Of a DNA stretch of 64,000 bases, positions 641 to 54,472 are shown in pieces. The notes under the pieces are model-generated. The model saw nothing but the letters and a program-made list of their open reading frames with translations. It did no database searches and was not told the origin of the DNA. The translations under genes and the position numbers were made by a program. Source of the stretch: Candidatus Gastranaerophilales bacterium (GTDB taxonomy: Bacteria > Cyanobacteriota > Vampirovibrionia > Gastranaerophilales > Gastranaerophilaceae); the NCBI GenBank assembly GCA_944324315.1, contig CALUVW010000004.1, forward strand, positions 1-64,000, written 5' to 3'. Numbering within the stretch: the stretch's first letter is position 1; each line of letters begins with the position of its first letter.

Positions 641-1542
641 ATGGATAGAGAAGAGCTGAGAATCGCCCCCCCCCCGAAAAGATAGGCAAGACTAACTTTT
701 TAAGCTATTTGATTGACACAATTTACAAATCGTATCATAATTGTGATATAGCACATCACTTAAAAAAATATAAAATAGGATTTACACTCGCAGAAGTTTT
801 AATTACACTCGGTATTATCGGCGTTGTTGCAGCTATGACGTTGTCTTCTCTTATTCACAAATTTCAAAATAAAACTCTTGAAACCCAGTATAAAAAGACT
901 GTATCTATTGTGTCACAGGCTATTCTTAAGGCTAAAGCAGATTACGGATTGGATAAATTCGCGGAATATTGTACATATTACCCGTACGCATCCGACAGCG
1001 GCAAGCCTTATGACCATGCAGAAGAATGTTATCAAATTCTTTTTAAAAGTTTGCTTAATGTACAGGGACAAAAAAATCCTTATACCCAAAATGAAAAATT
1101 TATTAATAGACACAATGACACAATAAGGACTTACAATAATAAACAAACTGTTACAGCAAGCGACCTTGCAGGGATAGGGTTTACTCTATTTAGCACTTAT
1201 GTGATGCCTGACGGAAGTTATATTAGCTTTAACATAGTTGAATATAATCTACATATTGGTGTTGACACAAACGGCAGTAAAAAACCGAACAAACTCGGAC
1301 ACGACATCTTTATTTTTTACTTGGATAAAAATAAAGATGCTCTATCTTATAAAACAAAACCACAAAATCTAACAGATGAAGAGCTGGAAGGTTATGAAGA
1401 TGGATTCCAAAAAGAACGTGCCGGAAATCCCTGCAATTTGACTTCCAGCCAAAAGGGCAACGGAATAGGGTGCTCATATTATGCTTTAAGAAATGAATGT
1501 CCGTATGACAGTTCAAAAAGATACTTTGAATGTTTACCGTAA
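641..1542 (+). CDS. Prepilin-like protein, locus 1, with out-of-frame poly-C leader
   Basis: The body (uninterrupted from a TTG at 709) carries a type IV prepilin signal, KIG|FTLAEVLITLGIIGVVAA, followed by a globular domain with late cysteines (GNPCNL, GIGCSYY, NECPYD). Such proteins are cut after the G by a prepilin peptidase and assembled as pilins or type II secretion pseudopilins. The TTG has no ribosome site. A strong Shine-Dalgarno (CAGGAGG) instead serves ATG 641, giving leader MDREELRIAPPP. With the 10 C at 666-675 this leader stops at 683-685. With 11 or 8 C it reads through without a stop into the body. The nearest relative is locus 4, same fold and C-terminus. The prepilin call is firm; the true start is inferred. 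Confidence 0.8.
666..675 (+). repeat. Poly-C tract (10) in leader of prepilin locus 1
   Basis: Ten consecutive C flanked by CG and GAAAA in otherwise AT-rich DNA. It sits 25 bases after the leader ATG. Adding one C or removing two joins leader and prepilin frames. Tracts of this kind are classical slippage-prone contingency sites. Confidence 0.9.
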
Positions 1543-10182: not shown

Positions 10183-11432
10183 CTATTCCATCAGATATTT
10201 AGCAGAACAGCAAGCTCCTGCGATAACTTCTCCGGTCTGACCTGGAGCTGAGCCAATATATGTAGCATTTTGTGCACCTTTGTCAGGGGAGCACTCGCAG
10301 ACGTCTCCATTTGATGCTGTATCGTAAGTTCCTTCTGCACCCATTGGCTGCAAATAATGCTTTCCTGTCTTAATATTCGAAGTTACATGAATGACAAACA
10401 CATCACGGCCAAACTCATTTGGTCCTTTTTGAAAATTATTTACATCTACTACTATCCAAGGACCGCCATGACTTCCACCTAAATATATTACTGCTCCATC
10501 ATTTAGTAGAAGGGCAAGTCTGCTAAAGTTATATGCACTGATTCCATAAGGAGAATAACTGACGGGATTCGATTCTATTCGCACTCCTAATGCCTTATAA
10601 CGGGAATAAATATTCGCTACACCGCTCCACCTGTATTTAGCATTTTTTTCATACCAACTACTATTATAGTAATCACATATCTTTTCAGATGGAACATCTG
10701 GAGTTTTTATGCCGCAACAATCTATTATCTTTAACTTTGATTGGAATGATGAAATAAATTCATTTGTATAACTCTGCCCGTTACAATCGCCGTACTTAGT
10801 GTCGTTACAAATGGTTATCCCGTCTGCAGCTACTTCATTAAAAACATTGTTGATTACCGAATATTCTTTTTTCCACTTCGCTATATTTTGTTTGTTCTGG
10901 ATATTTTGGATGACAATTGATAACGTTAAGACTGCTACTACACCGATTACACCAAGAGTAATTAGAACTTCTGCGAAAGTAAAAGCGGCTCGTGTTTTAA
11001 GTAAAGAGTGAAAGTGGGAAGCGTCTATTTCTTCCTTATCCTCTGTGTGGGAGAAGGTGGTACGAAGTACCGGATCAGGGGTGCACCCGACACATTTAAC
11101 TACTTCTCCTATGGGAGAGGGTTGGGGTGGGTATTGATTTATACCTATCCTCTTGTCCTTCCATAATAAGGGAAGGAAGATGTTGCGTATTACCATCTCA
11201 CTTAATCCCTCTCCCAAGAGAGGGAAATATTTTTTTACGTTAAGGACTTTGCATCTTATAACGAGATACTGAAACAAGTTCAGGATGACGTTTCTTAAAC
11301 TGACTTTGCCTCTCTGCCTCTTTGCGTCTGTGCCTCCGGCGGAGCCTACAGTGCCCCCCCCCCGAGTACTATATTTATAGTAGTTTCTATATTATTAACT
11401 GTTTTTTTTAATAAATCTTTTAATTTTTTCAT
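10183..11432 (-). CDS. Prepilin-like protein, locus 2, with out-of-frame poly-G leader
   Basis: The body (uninterrupted from a TTG at 11277) has a prepilin signal, RAA|FTFAEVLITLGVIGVVAV, and a Cys-rich C-terminus (VCECSPDKG, GACCSAKY) shared with locus 5. The leader starts at ATG 11432 after GGAGTGAGAGT and encodes MKKLKDLLKKTVNN followed by a glycine run. With the 10 G at 11354-11363 it stops shortly after the tract. With 11 or 8 G it runs on without stop through about 110 codons to the signal. That stretch includes in-frame copies of two interspersed repeats (11101-11182 and 11214-11328), which makes the pre-signal region far longer than a normal leader of 6-25 residues. Function: pilus or pseudopilus subunit, inferred. 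Confidence 0.75.
11101..11182. repeat. Interspersed repeat type B, copy 1
   Basis: A C-rich element containing GGGTTGGGGTGGGTA and CCTTCCAT...GGGAAGGAAG arms. It resembles, in reverse orientation, the element at 53510-53611 in prepilin locus 6. In both loci it lies between the homopolymer tract and the prepilin signal and is translated in the body frame. Confidence 0.55.
11214..11328 (-). repeat. Interspersed repeat type A, in-frame copy in prepilin locus 2
   Basis: 115 bases that align without gaps, at roughly nine in ten positions by eye, with 15634-15748 in prepilin locus 3. Both copies are read in the same frame, giving DAKRQRG.VSLRNV.LNLFQ and IRCKVLN.KKYFP. The core GTCATCCTGAACTTGTTTCAG also appears as intergenic elements at 31960, 43579 and 43970. 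Confidence 0.75.
11354..11363 (-). repeat. Poly-G tract (10, coding strand) in leader of prepilin locus 2
   Basis: Ten C on the + strand, read as G by the gene. Flanked on the + strand by GTG and GAG. One extra base joins the MKKLKDLL leader to the prepilin frame. Confidence 0.9.
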
Positions 11433-14889: not shown

Positions 14890-14919
14890 AAAAAAGCTCC
14901 CTTAATAGGGAGCTTTTTT
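14890..14919. terminator. Bidirectional terminator between ycf23 and prepilin locus 3
   Basis: AAAAAAGCTCCC, loop TTAATA, GGGAGCTTTTTT: perfect 12-base arms with A and T flanks on both sides. It overlaps the last codon of the convergent prepilin. Confidence 0.9.
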
Positions 14920-15927
14920 AATAGCTTATTTTTCGCGGATAATCTTTAGGAATTTTCCAGCCGTTATTCTGAATTATAGCAGTACAATATGCCCCGCTAT
15001 CAGTGTCTGCACAACCTTGATATAATTCCTCCTCAGTCCCTCGCCAGTTATAACGCCATGGTTCAAAACCTTTATTAATATGATATTTCCATAAATATTT
15101 ATAATCATCAGCCACAACCGGCACAAATTCAAACGCAAAGCCGCAAACACCTCTTATATGCCACAGGTCTGACCGCTCAAGACATTTTAAAGGATTTTGC
15201 GGAAAAAACACCCAATCTCTTATATTATTAGGGTTTATCTGAGCTAAAGCCGAACCATCGGAAAAGTAAACGATAAAAGTATTTCCTGATAATGTATCAT
15301 ACCTCACAACATTCATAAATTTCCCAATATATTTATCAAACCAAGGCTGAGCTGCCGAAGCATCAGCTATAGGAGTTCCAAAAGAATCCATTCCGGTATT
15401 CGGAATATCTGTATACCAGTATTCTCTAGGACCATATTGAGCCTCAGACATTAATATTGCCTGATTAATTGCGGAATAAAACTTTTTAAGGCGAGTTTCA
15501 ACAACAGTATTTTTATGTTTTTGAATTAAAACAGGCATTGTCATAGCAGCAACCACACCGATTATGCCAAGTGTGATAAGAACTTCTGCTAAAGTAAAAG
15601 CTGCTTTTTTTACCCGTTCATTAAATTCCTGTTCCAGGGTAGGGAAATATTTTTTTATGTTAAGGACTTTGCATCTTATAGCGAGATGCTGAAACAAGTT
15701 AAGCATGACGTTTCTTAAACTGGCTTCGCTTCTCTGCCTCTTTGCATCTTCGCATCTAATTATGAGATCCCGAAACAAGTTCGGGATTACACTAATCGCT
15801 TGACTTCTTGACCTCCGGACTTCCTGACATCTATTTAGCCCTGAATTGCCCCCCCCCCGAGACTTTCAGACATTGTGACTTCTATACAAGATTGTACTTG
15901 CAACTCTTCTAATCTTAATCTTTCCAT
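14918..15927 (-). CDS. Prepilin-like protein, locus 3, with out-of-frame poly-G leader
   Basis: The body (uninterrupted from a TTG at 15778) has the signal KKAA|FTLAEVLITLGIIGVVAA and a C-terminus (CTAIIQNNGWKIPKDYP) shared with locus 6. The leader starts at ATG 15927 after AAAGGAG and encodes MERLRLEELQ and so on to a glycine run. With the 10 G at 15849-15858 it stops at a TAA soon after. With 11 or 8 G the frame is open through about 110 codons to the signal, including an in-frame type A repeat (15634-15748) and a second short relative near 15764-15790. A clear promoter lies upstream (15958-15986). Role: pilus or pseudopilus subunit, inferred from the signal. Confidence 0.75.
15634..15748 (-). 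repeat. Interspersed repeat type A, in-frame copy in prepilin locus 3
   Basis: Gap-free relative of 11214-11328. The translated product keeps RCKVLNIKKYFP and SLRNVMLNLFQ, so the reading frame of the repeat is the same in both host genes. Confidence 0.75.
15849..15858 (-). repeat. Poly-G tract (10, coding strand) in leader of prepilin locus 3
   Basis: Ten C on the + strand, flanked by ATTG and GAGAC. Adding one base joins the MERLRLEELQ leader to the prepilin frame. Confidence 0.9.
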
Positions 15928-19276: not shown

Positions 19277-20183
19277 ATGAATAGAGAAAATGCTTTCAGG
19301 ATTACCTCCCCCCCCCGAAAACACTGATTATACAAGTGTTTTAAGCAAATCTAAATATCACTCAAATAGGAATAATAAATTTATTAACCCTTATAATAAA
19401 AGCAAATCCGCATTTACATTAGCTGAAGTTTTAATCACTCTCGGTATTATCGGCGTTGTTGCATCTTTGACTATGCCAGCTCTTATTCATAAATATCAAA
19501 AAAAAGCGCTTGAAGCTCAATACAAAAAATCCGTTTCTATTGTCTCACAAGTTATAATGAAAGCCAAAGCGGATTTTGGAATTGATAAATTTGGTGAATA
19601 CTGCACATACTACCCGCACGATCCTAGTTCTGGAATGCCCTATGATCATGCAGAAGAATGTTATCAAATTTTATTTAAAAGTTTATTTAATATTGATGGC
19701 CAAAAAACTCCCTATACCAAAAACGGACGGCTTGTACGCAGGGTTAATGATAATATCAAAACTTATAATAATAAACAAACATCCACACCAAATTCTCTTG
19801 GAGGTATAGGTTATACTATATTTGAAACATACGTAATGCCAGATGGAAGCTACATTAATTTTGATATTGTTGAATACTCACTTTATATAGGTATAGACAC
19901 AAATGGTGCTAAAAAACCCAATAAGTTAGGACATGATATCTTTATTTTTAAAGTAGATAAAAATAAAGATATTCTGGCTGCTGGAACTAACAAACCTCAA
20001 AATCTCTCAGACGAAGAAATTGAACAGGGAGATTATGAATCTGAACTCCTAGAAGCACGCGCCGGAAATCCGTGTAACTTAACCTCTAACCAAAAAGGAA
20101 ACGGCATTGGATGTGCATACTATAGTATAAGAAATCAATGTCCTTATGATTCAACTAAAACTTATTTTGAATGTCTGCCGTAA
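19277..20183 (+). CDS. Prepilin-like protein, locus 4, poly-C leader with two start frames
   Basis: The body carries the signal KSA|FTLAEVLITLGIIGVVAS and the same C-terminal cysteine pattern as locus 1 (GNPCNLTS, GIGCAYY, QCPYDS). After GAGAGGAG, ATG 19277 begins leader MNRENAFRITSPP, which stops soon after the present 9-C tract (19308-19316). It would be in frame at 8 or 11. A second ATG at 19290 (MLSGLPPPP) is in frame with the body at 9, so this locus may be expressed weakly now. Its 5' cassette is near-identical to that of locus 6, although the bodies belong to different subfamilies. The 3' end overlaps the convergent ligase gene by 22 bases. Confidence 0.82.
19308..19316 (+). repeat. 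Poly-C tract (9) in leader of prepilin locus 4
   Basis: Nine C preceded by ACCT and followed by GAAAAC. At 9 the downstream ATG 19290 is in frame; at 8 or 11 the upstream ATG 19277 is in frame; at 10 neither is. Confidence 0.9.
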
Positions 20184-42504: not shown

Positions 42505-43400
42505 TTAATATGAATATAATTTTACAGAACTGCAGCAGGAACCGGAAAGAAGATAACCGTTAAGCAAATCAGAAGATCCCAAAAATCCTTGTCCTGACTC
42601 AATGCCCGAATCAGGAGAACATTCACAATTATCGCCATTAGTATTTTTATTAAATGTTCCTTCTGCCCCTATAGGTTTAATCCAATCATCAGTAACCATA
42701 GCAGCAAAAAAATCTTTACCGAGTACATTGGGTCCTTTAGCAAAAGAATTAACATCAACAGCTATCATACCTGTAGCCCAGCCGCCGAAATAAATAGTCG
42801 TACCATCAGGTAATAAAATTGCCTTATGCATAAAATCCCAGCCTGTTCCTAAAGTCCCTCTATTAGGGCATGAGACAGGAGAAGTCTGTTTTCTTGTTCC
42901 TGCCGGAGAAGAAGTTTTTAAAGAATCATACATACTATAAGGAGTAGATCCGCCACATAAGCCGTTCCATGGCTGATAATAACTTGTACAATATTCACTT
43001 TCACCGTATTGCGGAAAACCGCAGCTTTCTATAACCTTGAAATGTGCCACAAACTTTGAAACAAATTCCGGCGACAAAGTTGCATACTCACTATTTTGTA
43101 AAAATTCTTTAGGTTTTGGACATTTTGTCGGAATATCAAAATCTCCTTCTTTAGTCTTTACGCATATATTACCGCCCATTTCATTCTTTACAAGATTGTA
43201 TACACCGGCAATTTCACTGTATTTCTTTTTCCACATGGAAGCAAACTGTTTATCCTGATAATTTTTTATGAATACAGGTAAAGTTATTGCAGCAACCACA
43301 CCAATAATTCCCAGTGTGATTAAGACCTCCGCAAGCGTAAACCCTCTTAAGAAGCTGCAGAACGCCCCCCCCCCGAAATTTTAATAATATCTCTTTTCAT
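42505..43400 (-). CDS. Prepilin-like protein, locus 5, with out-of-frame poly-G leader
   Basis: The prepilin signal is FLRG|FTLAEVLITLGIIGVVAA, followed by a body with the C-terminal ECSPDSG and GSCCSSV pattern shared with locus 2. No ATG, GTG or TTG lies between the tract and the signal in the body frame; the first possible start (GTG 43299) is inside the signal helix. ATG 43400, with AAGGAG ahead and a clear promoter, gives MKRDIIKIS, a glycine run, then AFCSFLRG, a normal ~20-residue prepilin leader, only if the 10-G tract (43365-43374) is 11 or 8 long. This is the simplest member and the best evidence that the leaders belong to the prepilins. Confidence 0.82.
43365..43374 (-). repeat. Poly-G tract (10, coding strand) in leader of prepilin locus 5
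   Basis: Ten C on the + strand between AACG and GAAAT. The leader stops at a TAA just beyond it. One extra base restores a 20-residue leader ending at the prepilin cleavage site. Confidence 0.92.
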
Positions 43401-53353: not shown

Positions 53354-53382
53354 TTGACAAAATCTAAAAAATAGTAAATAAT
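53354..53382 (+). promoter_or_regulatory. Promoter of prepilin locus 6
   Basis: TTGACA at 53354-53359, 17-base spacer, AATAAT at 53377-53382. The promoter, ribosome site and leader align over about 87 bases with locus 4, with around ten differences by eye. Confidence 0.78.
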
Positions 53383-53413
53383 GAATTTAGTTAAGAAGAA
53401 AAGGAGTTTGAAA

Positions 53414-54396
53414 ATGAATAGAGAAGATGCTTTCAGGATTGCCCCCCCCCCGAAAAGTCAAACGTAATTACATTTTTCAGAGATTTTAGAAATTATTTTT
53501 GTTTTAATATCATCCTTCCCTTGTCAGGGAAGGATAAGAGGATGGGTGACGATTTAAAATTATCCAAATTAACACCCACCCCTATCCCCTCCCTGATTAG
53601 GGAGGGAAGTACGCATGCTGCCACCTGTAACAGAAAACGTAAAGCTGCATTGACTATCTCCGAAGGAGCTACGCACGTTGCCCACTCTCACAATATTAGT
53701 CGAGCAGCTTTTACTCTGGCAGAAGTGTTAATCACCCTTGGTATAATAGGTGTGGTTGCGGCAATGACTATGCCAACAATTATTTCTAATCATAATAAAG
53801 CTGTAGTAGTAACTAAACTAAAATCAGCCCAGAGTATCATTACCCAAATGCTTACTATGGCAATAGTTGACCACGGTGATCCAAATACATGGGATTTTAA
53901 TAACGCTTTAGGCGCAGAGATAAGTGAAACTGAAAGTTTGATTAAATCTCTTACAGAAAAATATTTTCTGCCCTATTTGAATGATACCAAACATAGCGGT
54001 TATATGAGTTTGAAAGAAGCCGGTTATGAACCATATAAAACAGCAGACGGACAATATAATTATTCAAATCTAGGTGACGAAAGTAAAAAACAGTATGTGA
54101 TTGAACTTGCAAACGGAATAACTATTTTTGTTTATATGAACAGCAGTACAATGTCAGGGAAATTAACATCCGTTCTGTTATACATAGACGTGAACGGAAA
54201 GAAAAAACCGAATGTTTTCGGACGTGACACCTTTGTTGCGAATATAGATTCCACTACCGGACAATTTAAGTGGCTCTATAGTAGTCTTACACATGAACAA
54301 ATAATTAAAGAATGTAGTGGTAACGGTCTTTCCTGTGGAGCTCTAATCCAACATGACGGCTGGCAAATTACCGATAAATATCCGATTAGAATTTAA
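53414..54396 (+). CDS. Prepilin-like protein, locus 6, poly-C leader with two start frames
   Basis: The body (uninterrupted from 53521) has the signal SRAA|FTLAEVLITLGIIGVVAA and the C-terminus of the locus 3 subfamily (CGALIQHDGWQITDKYP). ATG 53414, after AAAAGGAG, starts leader MNREDAFRIAPPP. A second ATG at 53427 starts MLSGLPPPP. With the 10-C tract (53442-53451) both stop before the body. With 11 or 8 the first, and with 9 or 12 the second, reads into it. The stretch to the signal is open for about 85 codons and contains a type B repeat (53510-53611). The gene ends at a perfect bidirectional terminator. Role: pilus or pseudopilus subunit, inferred. Confidence 0.8.
53442..53451 (+). repeat. 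Poly-C tract (10) in leader of prepilin locus 6
   Basis: Ten C between ATTG and GAAAAG. At 10 both nearby ATGs are out of frame with the prepilin, so as written the locus should be off. Confidence 0.92.
53510..53611. repeat. Interspersed repeat type B, copy 2
   Basis: CATCCTTCCC...GGGAAGGATAAGAGGATGGGTG and CACCCACCCCTATCCCCTCC...GGGAGGGAAG. It resembles the element at 11101-11182 and is translated in the prepilin 6 frame. Confidence 0.55.
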
Positions 54397-54400
54397 AAAT

Positions 54401-54438
54401 AAACAAAAGCTGAAAATTTTACTTTTCAGCTTTTGTTT
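54401..54438. terminator. Bidirectional terminator after prepilin locus 6
   Basis: AAACAAAAGCTGAAAA and TTTTCAGCTTTTGTTT, perfect 16-base arms around a 6-base loop. It serves the + strand prepilin and the - strand DUF1858 gene. Confidence 0.92.
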
Positions 54439-54472
54439 ACTAAATTCTTAATAATTAATTAAACAATTCAAA

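Follow-up and report, generated by a model that had tools for sequence, protein, structure and literature searches.

In Neisseria, the pilE/pilS and Opa repertoires comprise many surface variants, only a few of which are displayed. At the level of decoding, sites of programmed -1 frameshifting and transcriptional slippage are characterized by a slippery run, an unshifted frame that stops early and a long frame overlapping it. Homopolymer phase variation (PMC6321876; PMC9187656) and frame transitions, the latter surveyed earlier by GeneTack (PMC3711429), are known parts, as the available portions of these sources describe them. In Bifidobacterium breve, the accessible text of PMC9187656 reports that the first pilus gene carries a G10 or G11 tract close to its start, that the reference sequence has it out of frame, and that slippage opens it. 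For the Campylobacter phasome, the available part of PMC6321876 gives a tract length of 9 in 53% and of 10 in 26% of cases, with C on the coding strand in 5%, and a proportion of ON genes near the neutral expectation in the larger set.

The locus described here, locus 6, lies in a window of 64,000 nucleotides (the whole stretch of DNA that was analysed) from a Candidatus Gastranaerophilales bacterium and is one of about 80 stand-alone pilin-like genes per genome. These genes have a common anatomy, a fixed tract length, a single common phase, an unshifted frame that stops early and a link to the replication strand. As in B. breve, a gut commensal carries a 5' G tract that closes a pilus gene in the reference; however, two sortase pilus loci are described there against about 80 type IV pilin-like genes here, and population length variation was measured there, whereas the present lengths come from assemblies alone. 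A shared phase or strand rule is present here, and none was met for B. breve in the available part of that source (PMC9187656). With Campylobacter the likeness is that the surface genes of one genome carry numerous 5' poly-G/C tracts. In contrast to the Campylobacter spread, 84% of the tracts of at least 9 nt are exactly 10 nt long here and 98% of the ten-tract pilins are OFF; against the 5% reported there, the coding strand carries C in about one quarter of the ten-tract pilins (PMC6321876, available part). The bank of Neisseria is resembled in its size and, as proposed below, in the display of few variants, although here no copy lacks a start of its own and a separate promoter is present for most.

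A search of the open-licence PubMed Central literature, carried out largely by title, returned, among the papers listed, no description of tract-gated pilins or phase variation in Gastranaerophilales/Melainabacteria; PMC5877343, in its available part, is not on tract-gated pilins either. As far as searches of this open-licence literature show, what is new is how large the pilin bank is, how nearly its tracts agree in length, the one closed phase that its genes share, and the strand rule.

Sequences and scoring

The genome from which the window is taken (own genome) comprises 1.88 Mb in 49 contigs. Phase was scored by picking the start by its ribosome site and the body by its prepilin motif, which gave 187 distinct tract-bearing pilin-like genes: 79 from the own genome, 46 from the same-genus genome G007, 40 from named genomes, which are assemblies from several projects, and 22 from a second genus. 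Nine tract-bearing pilins without a clear ribosome site, as well as duplicates recognized by identical flanks, were set aside before counting. Two genes with overlapping starts, L054 and L232, were counted as in frame, and an equally good overlapping ATG would place them in the common phase.

Anatomy of locus 6

The features of locus 6 and of the other tract loci of the window are collected in Table 1. The promoter-like site, the AGGAG and the inverted repeat past the stop make the gene look live. An earlier note, made from the letters of the window, had placed two ATGs ahead of the C tract and had read both frames as closed at 10 C; these claims were borne out. By frame computation, the first ATG gives 17 codons and the second 20 codons at 10 C; the first opens at 8 or 11 C, with 326 or 327 codons, and the second at 9 or 12 C, with 322 or 323 codons. 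The second ATG is an out-of-frame ATG within the Asp-Ala codons GATGCT, and its score falls under the cut-off for a strong ribosome site. Dual start codons were also considered as a conserved feature and dropped, an open out-of-frame second ATG occurring in only 7 of 46 C-type leaders, every one from a single paralogue group.

Table 1. Coordinates of locus 6 and of the other tract loci (positions in the window)
Feature	Position	Strand	Remark
Locus 6 promoter, sigma-70-like (TTGACA, 17 nt, AATAAT)	53354..53382	+	11/12 consensus matches
Locus 6 ribosome binding site AGGAG	53402..53406	+	ahead of first ATG; read from sequence
Locus 6 unshifted short frame as assembled	53414..53467	+	17 codons, stop 53465-53467
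Locus 6 second ATG, out-of-frame, incidental	53427..53429	+	open equivalent in 7/46 C-type leaders
Locus 6 C10 tract	53442..53451	+	downstream of both ATGs
Locus 6 pilin-like body frame	53452..54396	+	open from tract; readable only at tract length 8 or 11
Locus 6 prepilin motif FTLAEVLITLGIIGVVAA	from 53710	+	within pilin-like body frame
Inverted repeat, terminator-like	54398..54441	.	directly 3' of locus 6 stop; scored on - strand
Locus 1 C10 tract	666..675	+	ATG 641; opens at 8 or 11
Locus 2 G10 tract (coding sense)	11354..11363	-	ATG 11432; opens at 8 or 11; motif AFTFAEVLITLGVIGVVA
Locus 3 G10 tract (coding sense)	15849..15858	-	ATG 15927; opens at 8 or 11
Locus 4 C9 tract	19308..19316	+	ATG 19277 opens at 8 or 11; weak ATG 19290 open at 9
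Locus 5 G10 tract (coding sense)	43365..43374	-	ATG 43400; opens at 8 or 11

Locus 6 is included, above cut-off, among the 115 PF07963 matches of the genome, and its body is also above cut-off for TIGR02532. The start of the body, FTLAEVLITLGIIGVVAA, has the prepilin N-terminal motif (G/A, then FTxxE and a hydrophobic helix), and a profile search with locus 6 retrieved pilin helices only. A structure model built from 40 aligned sequences (mean pLDDT 89.4) has a long N-terminal helix (residues 3-55) and a mixed sheet domain. Foldseek returned no match of this model to solved structures at E 0.001, and the best VIA match, PAK pilin (Z 4.7, 119 residues, 3.4 Å), is weak and is not evidence of function. 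Judging from the motif and from general knowledge, the leader would be removed by prepilin peptidase, and a Pro or Gly run in it may therefore be tolerated.

Dispersed palindromic repeats are found in frame inside the leader of locus 6 (window 53500-53700) and inside most G-type leaders, such as those of L096 and L080; with these repeats, the leader from start to prepilin motif reaches up to 182 codons. A different prepilin-like gene, L123 (tract at 1453; G000 C1:57352), has the motif FTLAEMMVVLLIMSIILAA and a frame of 814 codons, and its G11 tract is in frame as assembled.

Other tract loci of the window

Runs of at least eight C or G are far more frequent in the window than chance would allow (17 overlapping 8-mer matches against a shuffle mean of 0.15). 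Loci 4 and 6 had been taken in the earlier note for sister cassettes caught in different states. This was not supported. Locus 4 is not locus 6 minus one C: it reads ...ATTACCT before its C9, and its start-to-tract distance is 31 nt against 28 nt at locus 6. Moreover, the difference in state depends on a weak incidental ATG. Locus 4 is closed from its strong-site ATG and open only from the weak second one, and from the main ATG both loci need 8 or 11. The body of locus 3 (window 14918-15778) matches PF20318 (DUF6613), a family of unknown function.

A single closed phase

As assembled, 183 of the 187 tract-bearing pilin-like genes are out of frame and four are in frame; the switching of the frame by a one-base change in length was computed for locus 6 and for these 187 genes. 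Among the 160 tracts of length 10, 156 need 11 (or 8), two need 9 and two are in frame. The 156 are distributed over all sets: 66/67 in the own genome, 43/43 in G007, 26/29 in the named genomes and 21/21 in the second genus. Nine of the eleven tracts of length 11 need 10, one needs 9 and one is in frame; of ten tracts of length 9, seven need 11 (or 8) and three need 10; all four tracts of length 12, together with the single tract of length 13, need 11, and the single gene with a tract of length 8 is in frame. L054 (tract at 1493) and L232 (tract at 2163) begin with overlapping ATGTATG, one start being open at 10 and the other at 11.

The start-to-tract distance spans the three codon phases (94, 10 and 10 genes for G tracts; 13, 22 and 7 for C tracts), and each of these phases is matched downstream of the tract. 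Three codon phases for both C and G make copying of one ancestor alone unlikely. In 14 genes the flanks need a tract of 10, and there the tract is 11 in nine, 9 in three and 10 in two; these genes have thus mostly abandoned the usual length and retained the OFF state. When flanks were clustered by ungapped likeness, the strictest cut-off gave 25 groups, 21 of them entirely in the common phase, and looser cut-offs gave 12 and 5 groups, of which 8 and 3 were entirely in that phase. Kinship therefore cuts the number of independent cases, and the pattern remains.

Tract length across genome, genus and order

The own genome holds 116 C/G runs of at least 9 nt, of which nine have length 9, 97 have length 10 (84%) and ten are longer, nine of these being of length 11; length 8 occurs three times. 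In 93 of the 97 ten-tracts, G stands on both sides of the run on the C strand. Across 16 same-genus genomes, 741 of 900 tracts of 9 to 11 nt are exactly 10 nt long, with 80 of length 9 and 79 of length 11. The string GC10G is present in 61 of 192 genomes of the order, mainly in the genus of the window and in another genus of the family (59 in G053 and 16 in G186); in other families it was found in 1 of 20 genomes. Among diverged copies with both flanks alike, tract length is equal in 35 of 39 pairs, and the four unequal pairs all involve L127, which lies 62 nt from a contig end. Length is less certain within 100 nt of a contig end, where three of ten tracts of at least 11 are situated (G000 C11:10, C25:20720 and C31:13836). 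A toggle between 10 and 11 deduced from the raw counts of 9 and 11 alone was dropped, because 9s and 11s are equally many.

Early stops, promoters and alternative starts

In 145 of the 160 ten-tract genes the unshifted frame meets a stop at most 15 nt past the tract, and in the 139 genes compared with shuffles 124 early stops were observed and 45 expected. A promoter match of at least 10/12 at the set distance, with the -35 box about 60 nt upstream of the ATG, was found for 73% of 78 own tract-bearing pilins and for 5.6% in resampled sequence. An ATG with some ribosome site lies 3' of the tract in 33 of 156 genes, and an alternative upstream start open at 10 was found in 17 genes, seven of them ATG and one of these with a good site; some genes may consequently be read without any shift. 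Tractless pilins coexist with these genes, and 13 of the 17 examined have ordinary leaders of at most 11 codons.

Tract polarity and the replication strand

All six tracts of the window have C on the + strand, though three of the genes sit on the - strand. On contigs with at least two tracts, the majority strand of the contig holds 101 of 103 tracts whatever the direction of the genes, and on contig 1 of G007 the tract strand switches once, between 176 and 349 kb. GC skew is tied by the usual rule to the leading strand. Measured along the C strand, GC skew was negative for 37 of 40 G007 regions and for 78 of 109 own regions, which by that rule places G on the leading strand. G leaders are accordingly found on leading-strand genes and C leaders on lagging-strand genes. 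Opposite leader types occur on bodies up to 60% identical, and for 27 of 77 own bodies the best body match carries the opposite type, so that leaders seem to be matched to the strand and not to the body. This polarity points to a process at the level of DNA.

Tract-bearing genes other than these pilins

In the glycosyltransferase L109, the domain PF00535 (residues 5-131) crosses a C10 in frame, with the tract at residue 53. Eleven other tract genes were picked by eye from the lists of open reading frames, the spanning frames L102 and L130 being omitted since their tract is near the C end; seven of the eleven are in frame at 10, against two of the 79 own pilins (Fisher p 1.5e-6).

Glycosyltransferases with C10 or G10 are L109:1026-1718, L050:690-1535, L033:999-1904 and L100 (tract 3588), three of which are in frame at 10 and one of which needs 11. 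Such tract genes may represent a more ordinary phase-variable set.

Discussion

The interpretation that we favour, and to which somewhat more than even weight can be given, is that of a default-OFF bank of phase-variable pilins, in which a gene would be switched ON when its tract goes from 10 to 11. Each gene brings a promoter, a ribosome site and an ATG of its own, followed by a short leader that contains ten C or G in a row; read unshifted, it soon meets a stop past the run, and the prepilin body lies in the frame that one extra base opens. In single cells, slippage during replication would take individual tracts from 10 to 11 and turn their genes ON, few genes of the bank would be displayed at a time, and the common state would be held OFF by selection. 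As G11 slips more than G10 in the available part of PMC9187656, the open state may be short-lived. Such a DNA switch is favoured by the strand rule and by the genes whose flanks need 10, with tracts of 11 (nine) or 9 (three) and not 10 (two). What counts against it is a length almost too constant for a contingency locus (97/116 in the genome, 35/39 pairs) in a genome in which MutL is present. In addition, the early stop in the unshifted frame is equally a trait of recoding sites. With 9s about as many as 11s in the genus (80 and 79), simple slippage alone leaves the near-absence of ten-tracts that need 9 (2/160) unexplained.

The DNA switch is preferred over a reading in which RNA is decoded differently, which we regard as a serious though unlikely competitor. 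There the tract would be a fixed recoding site: the DNA stays at 10, the polymerase adds a base by slippage or ribosomes slip back by one, and all pilins are made at a low, set level. An early stop near a slippery run is a trait of known frameshift sites, and the slippery run, the early unshifted stop (at most 15 nt in 145/160) and the overlapping long frame are found here too; length 10 is retained in diverged copies, and one phase is held in 156 of 160 genes, the second genus included. Unlike programmed frameshift sites, these tracts are followed by no folded RNA (mean z +0.34 in 60 sampled of the 139 genes; z +1.61 at locus 6), and their phase varies with length: nine of eleven eleven-tracts need 10 and four of four twelve-tracts need 11, so that "one more base" is not a general rule. 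The tract also tracks the replication strand, a link that is unexpected for an RNA-level device. In one tentative version, which we would doubt to a similar degree, the run would be no slipping switch: G10/C10 would act as a fixed decoding device, of exactly ten bases in both genera, the placing of G on the leading strand would steady the DNA length, and about 80 pilin-like genes per genome would be made only upon a one-base gain by polymerase or ribosome.

It was also considered that the assemblies undercall the tract by one base, the true length being 11 and the pilin genes ON. There is a precedent in B. breve, where deep sequencing showed mostly G12 at a pilus tract annotated as G11 (PMC9187656, available part). 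For the present genes an undercall is quite improbable: in the same genome the PF00535 domain of L109 is in frame through its C10, seven of eleven other tract genes are in frame at 10, lengths of 9, 11, 12 and 13 occur in the assemblies too, and the pattern repeats in assemblies of several projects.

Contingency loci slipping independently and caught in random states, as proposed in the earlier note, would suit surface genes with 5' homopolymer tracts and the existence of 9s and 11s. From that proposal it can be kept that a 5' homopolymer tract gates the readability of a surface-type (type IV pilin-like) gene. The independence of the slipping was not supported: about one third of the genes should be in frame and 4 of 187 are, 156 of 160 ten-tracts share the same phase, and the constancy of length in the genome and in diverged pairs speaks against it as well, which makes random states very improbable. 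Equally hard to credit is a family of dead copies, in which the tract arose once and shut the family, and the family then persisted by duplication, for although a few leaders are closed ahead of the motif (e.g., L043 and L070:6179), the gated frame stays open over bodies of 200 to 400 codons, the genes retain their promoters and ribosome sites, and in every codon phase the match between leader and body has been restored.

The usual picture of phase-variable loci is one of drift between ON and OFF. By contrast, about 80 genes per genome are found here on one side of the switch, alike in phase and in length, with the tract tied to the replication strand. Existing sequencing data could therefore be used to ask whether mutation or selection sets the tract length, and likewise whether long G/C runs can act as recoding signals in bacteria. 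The results also suggest that common gut bacteria harbour an extensive, hidden set of pilins, whose genes would be split or missed by gene callers.
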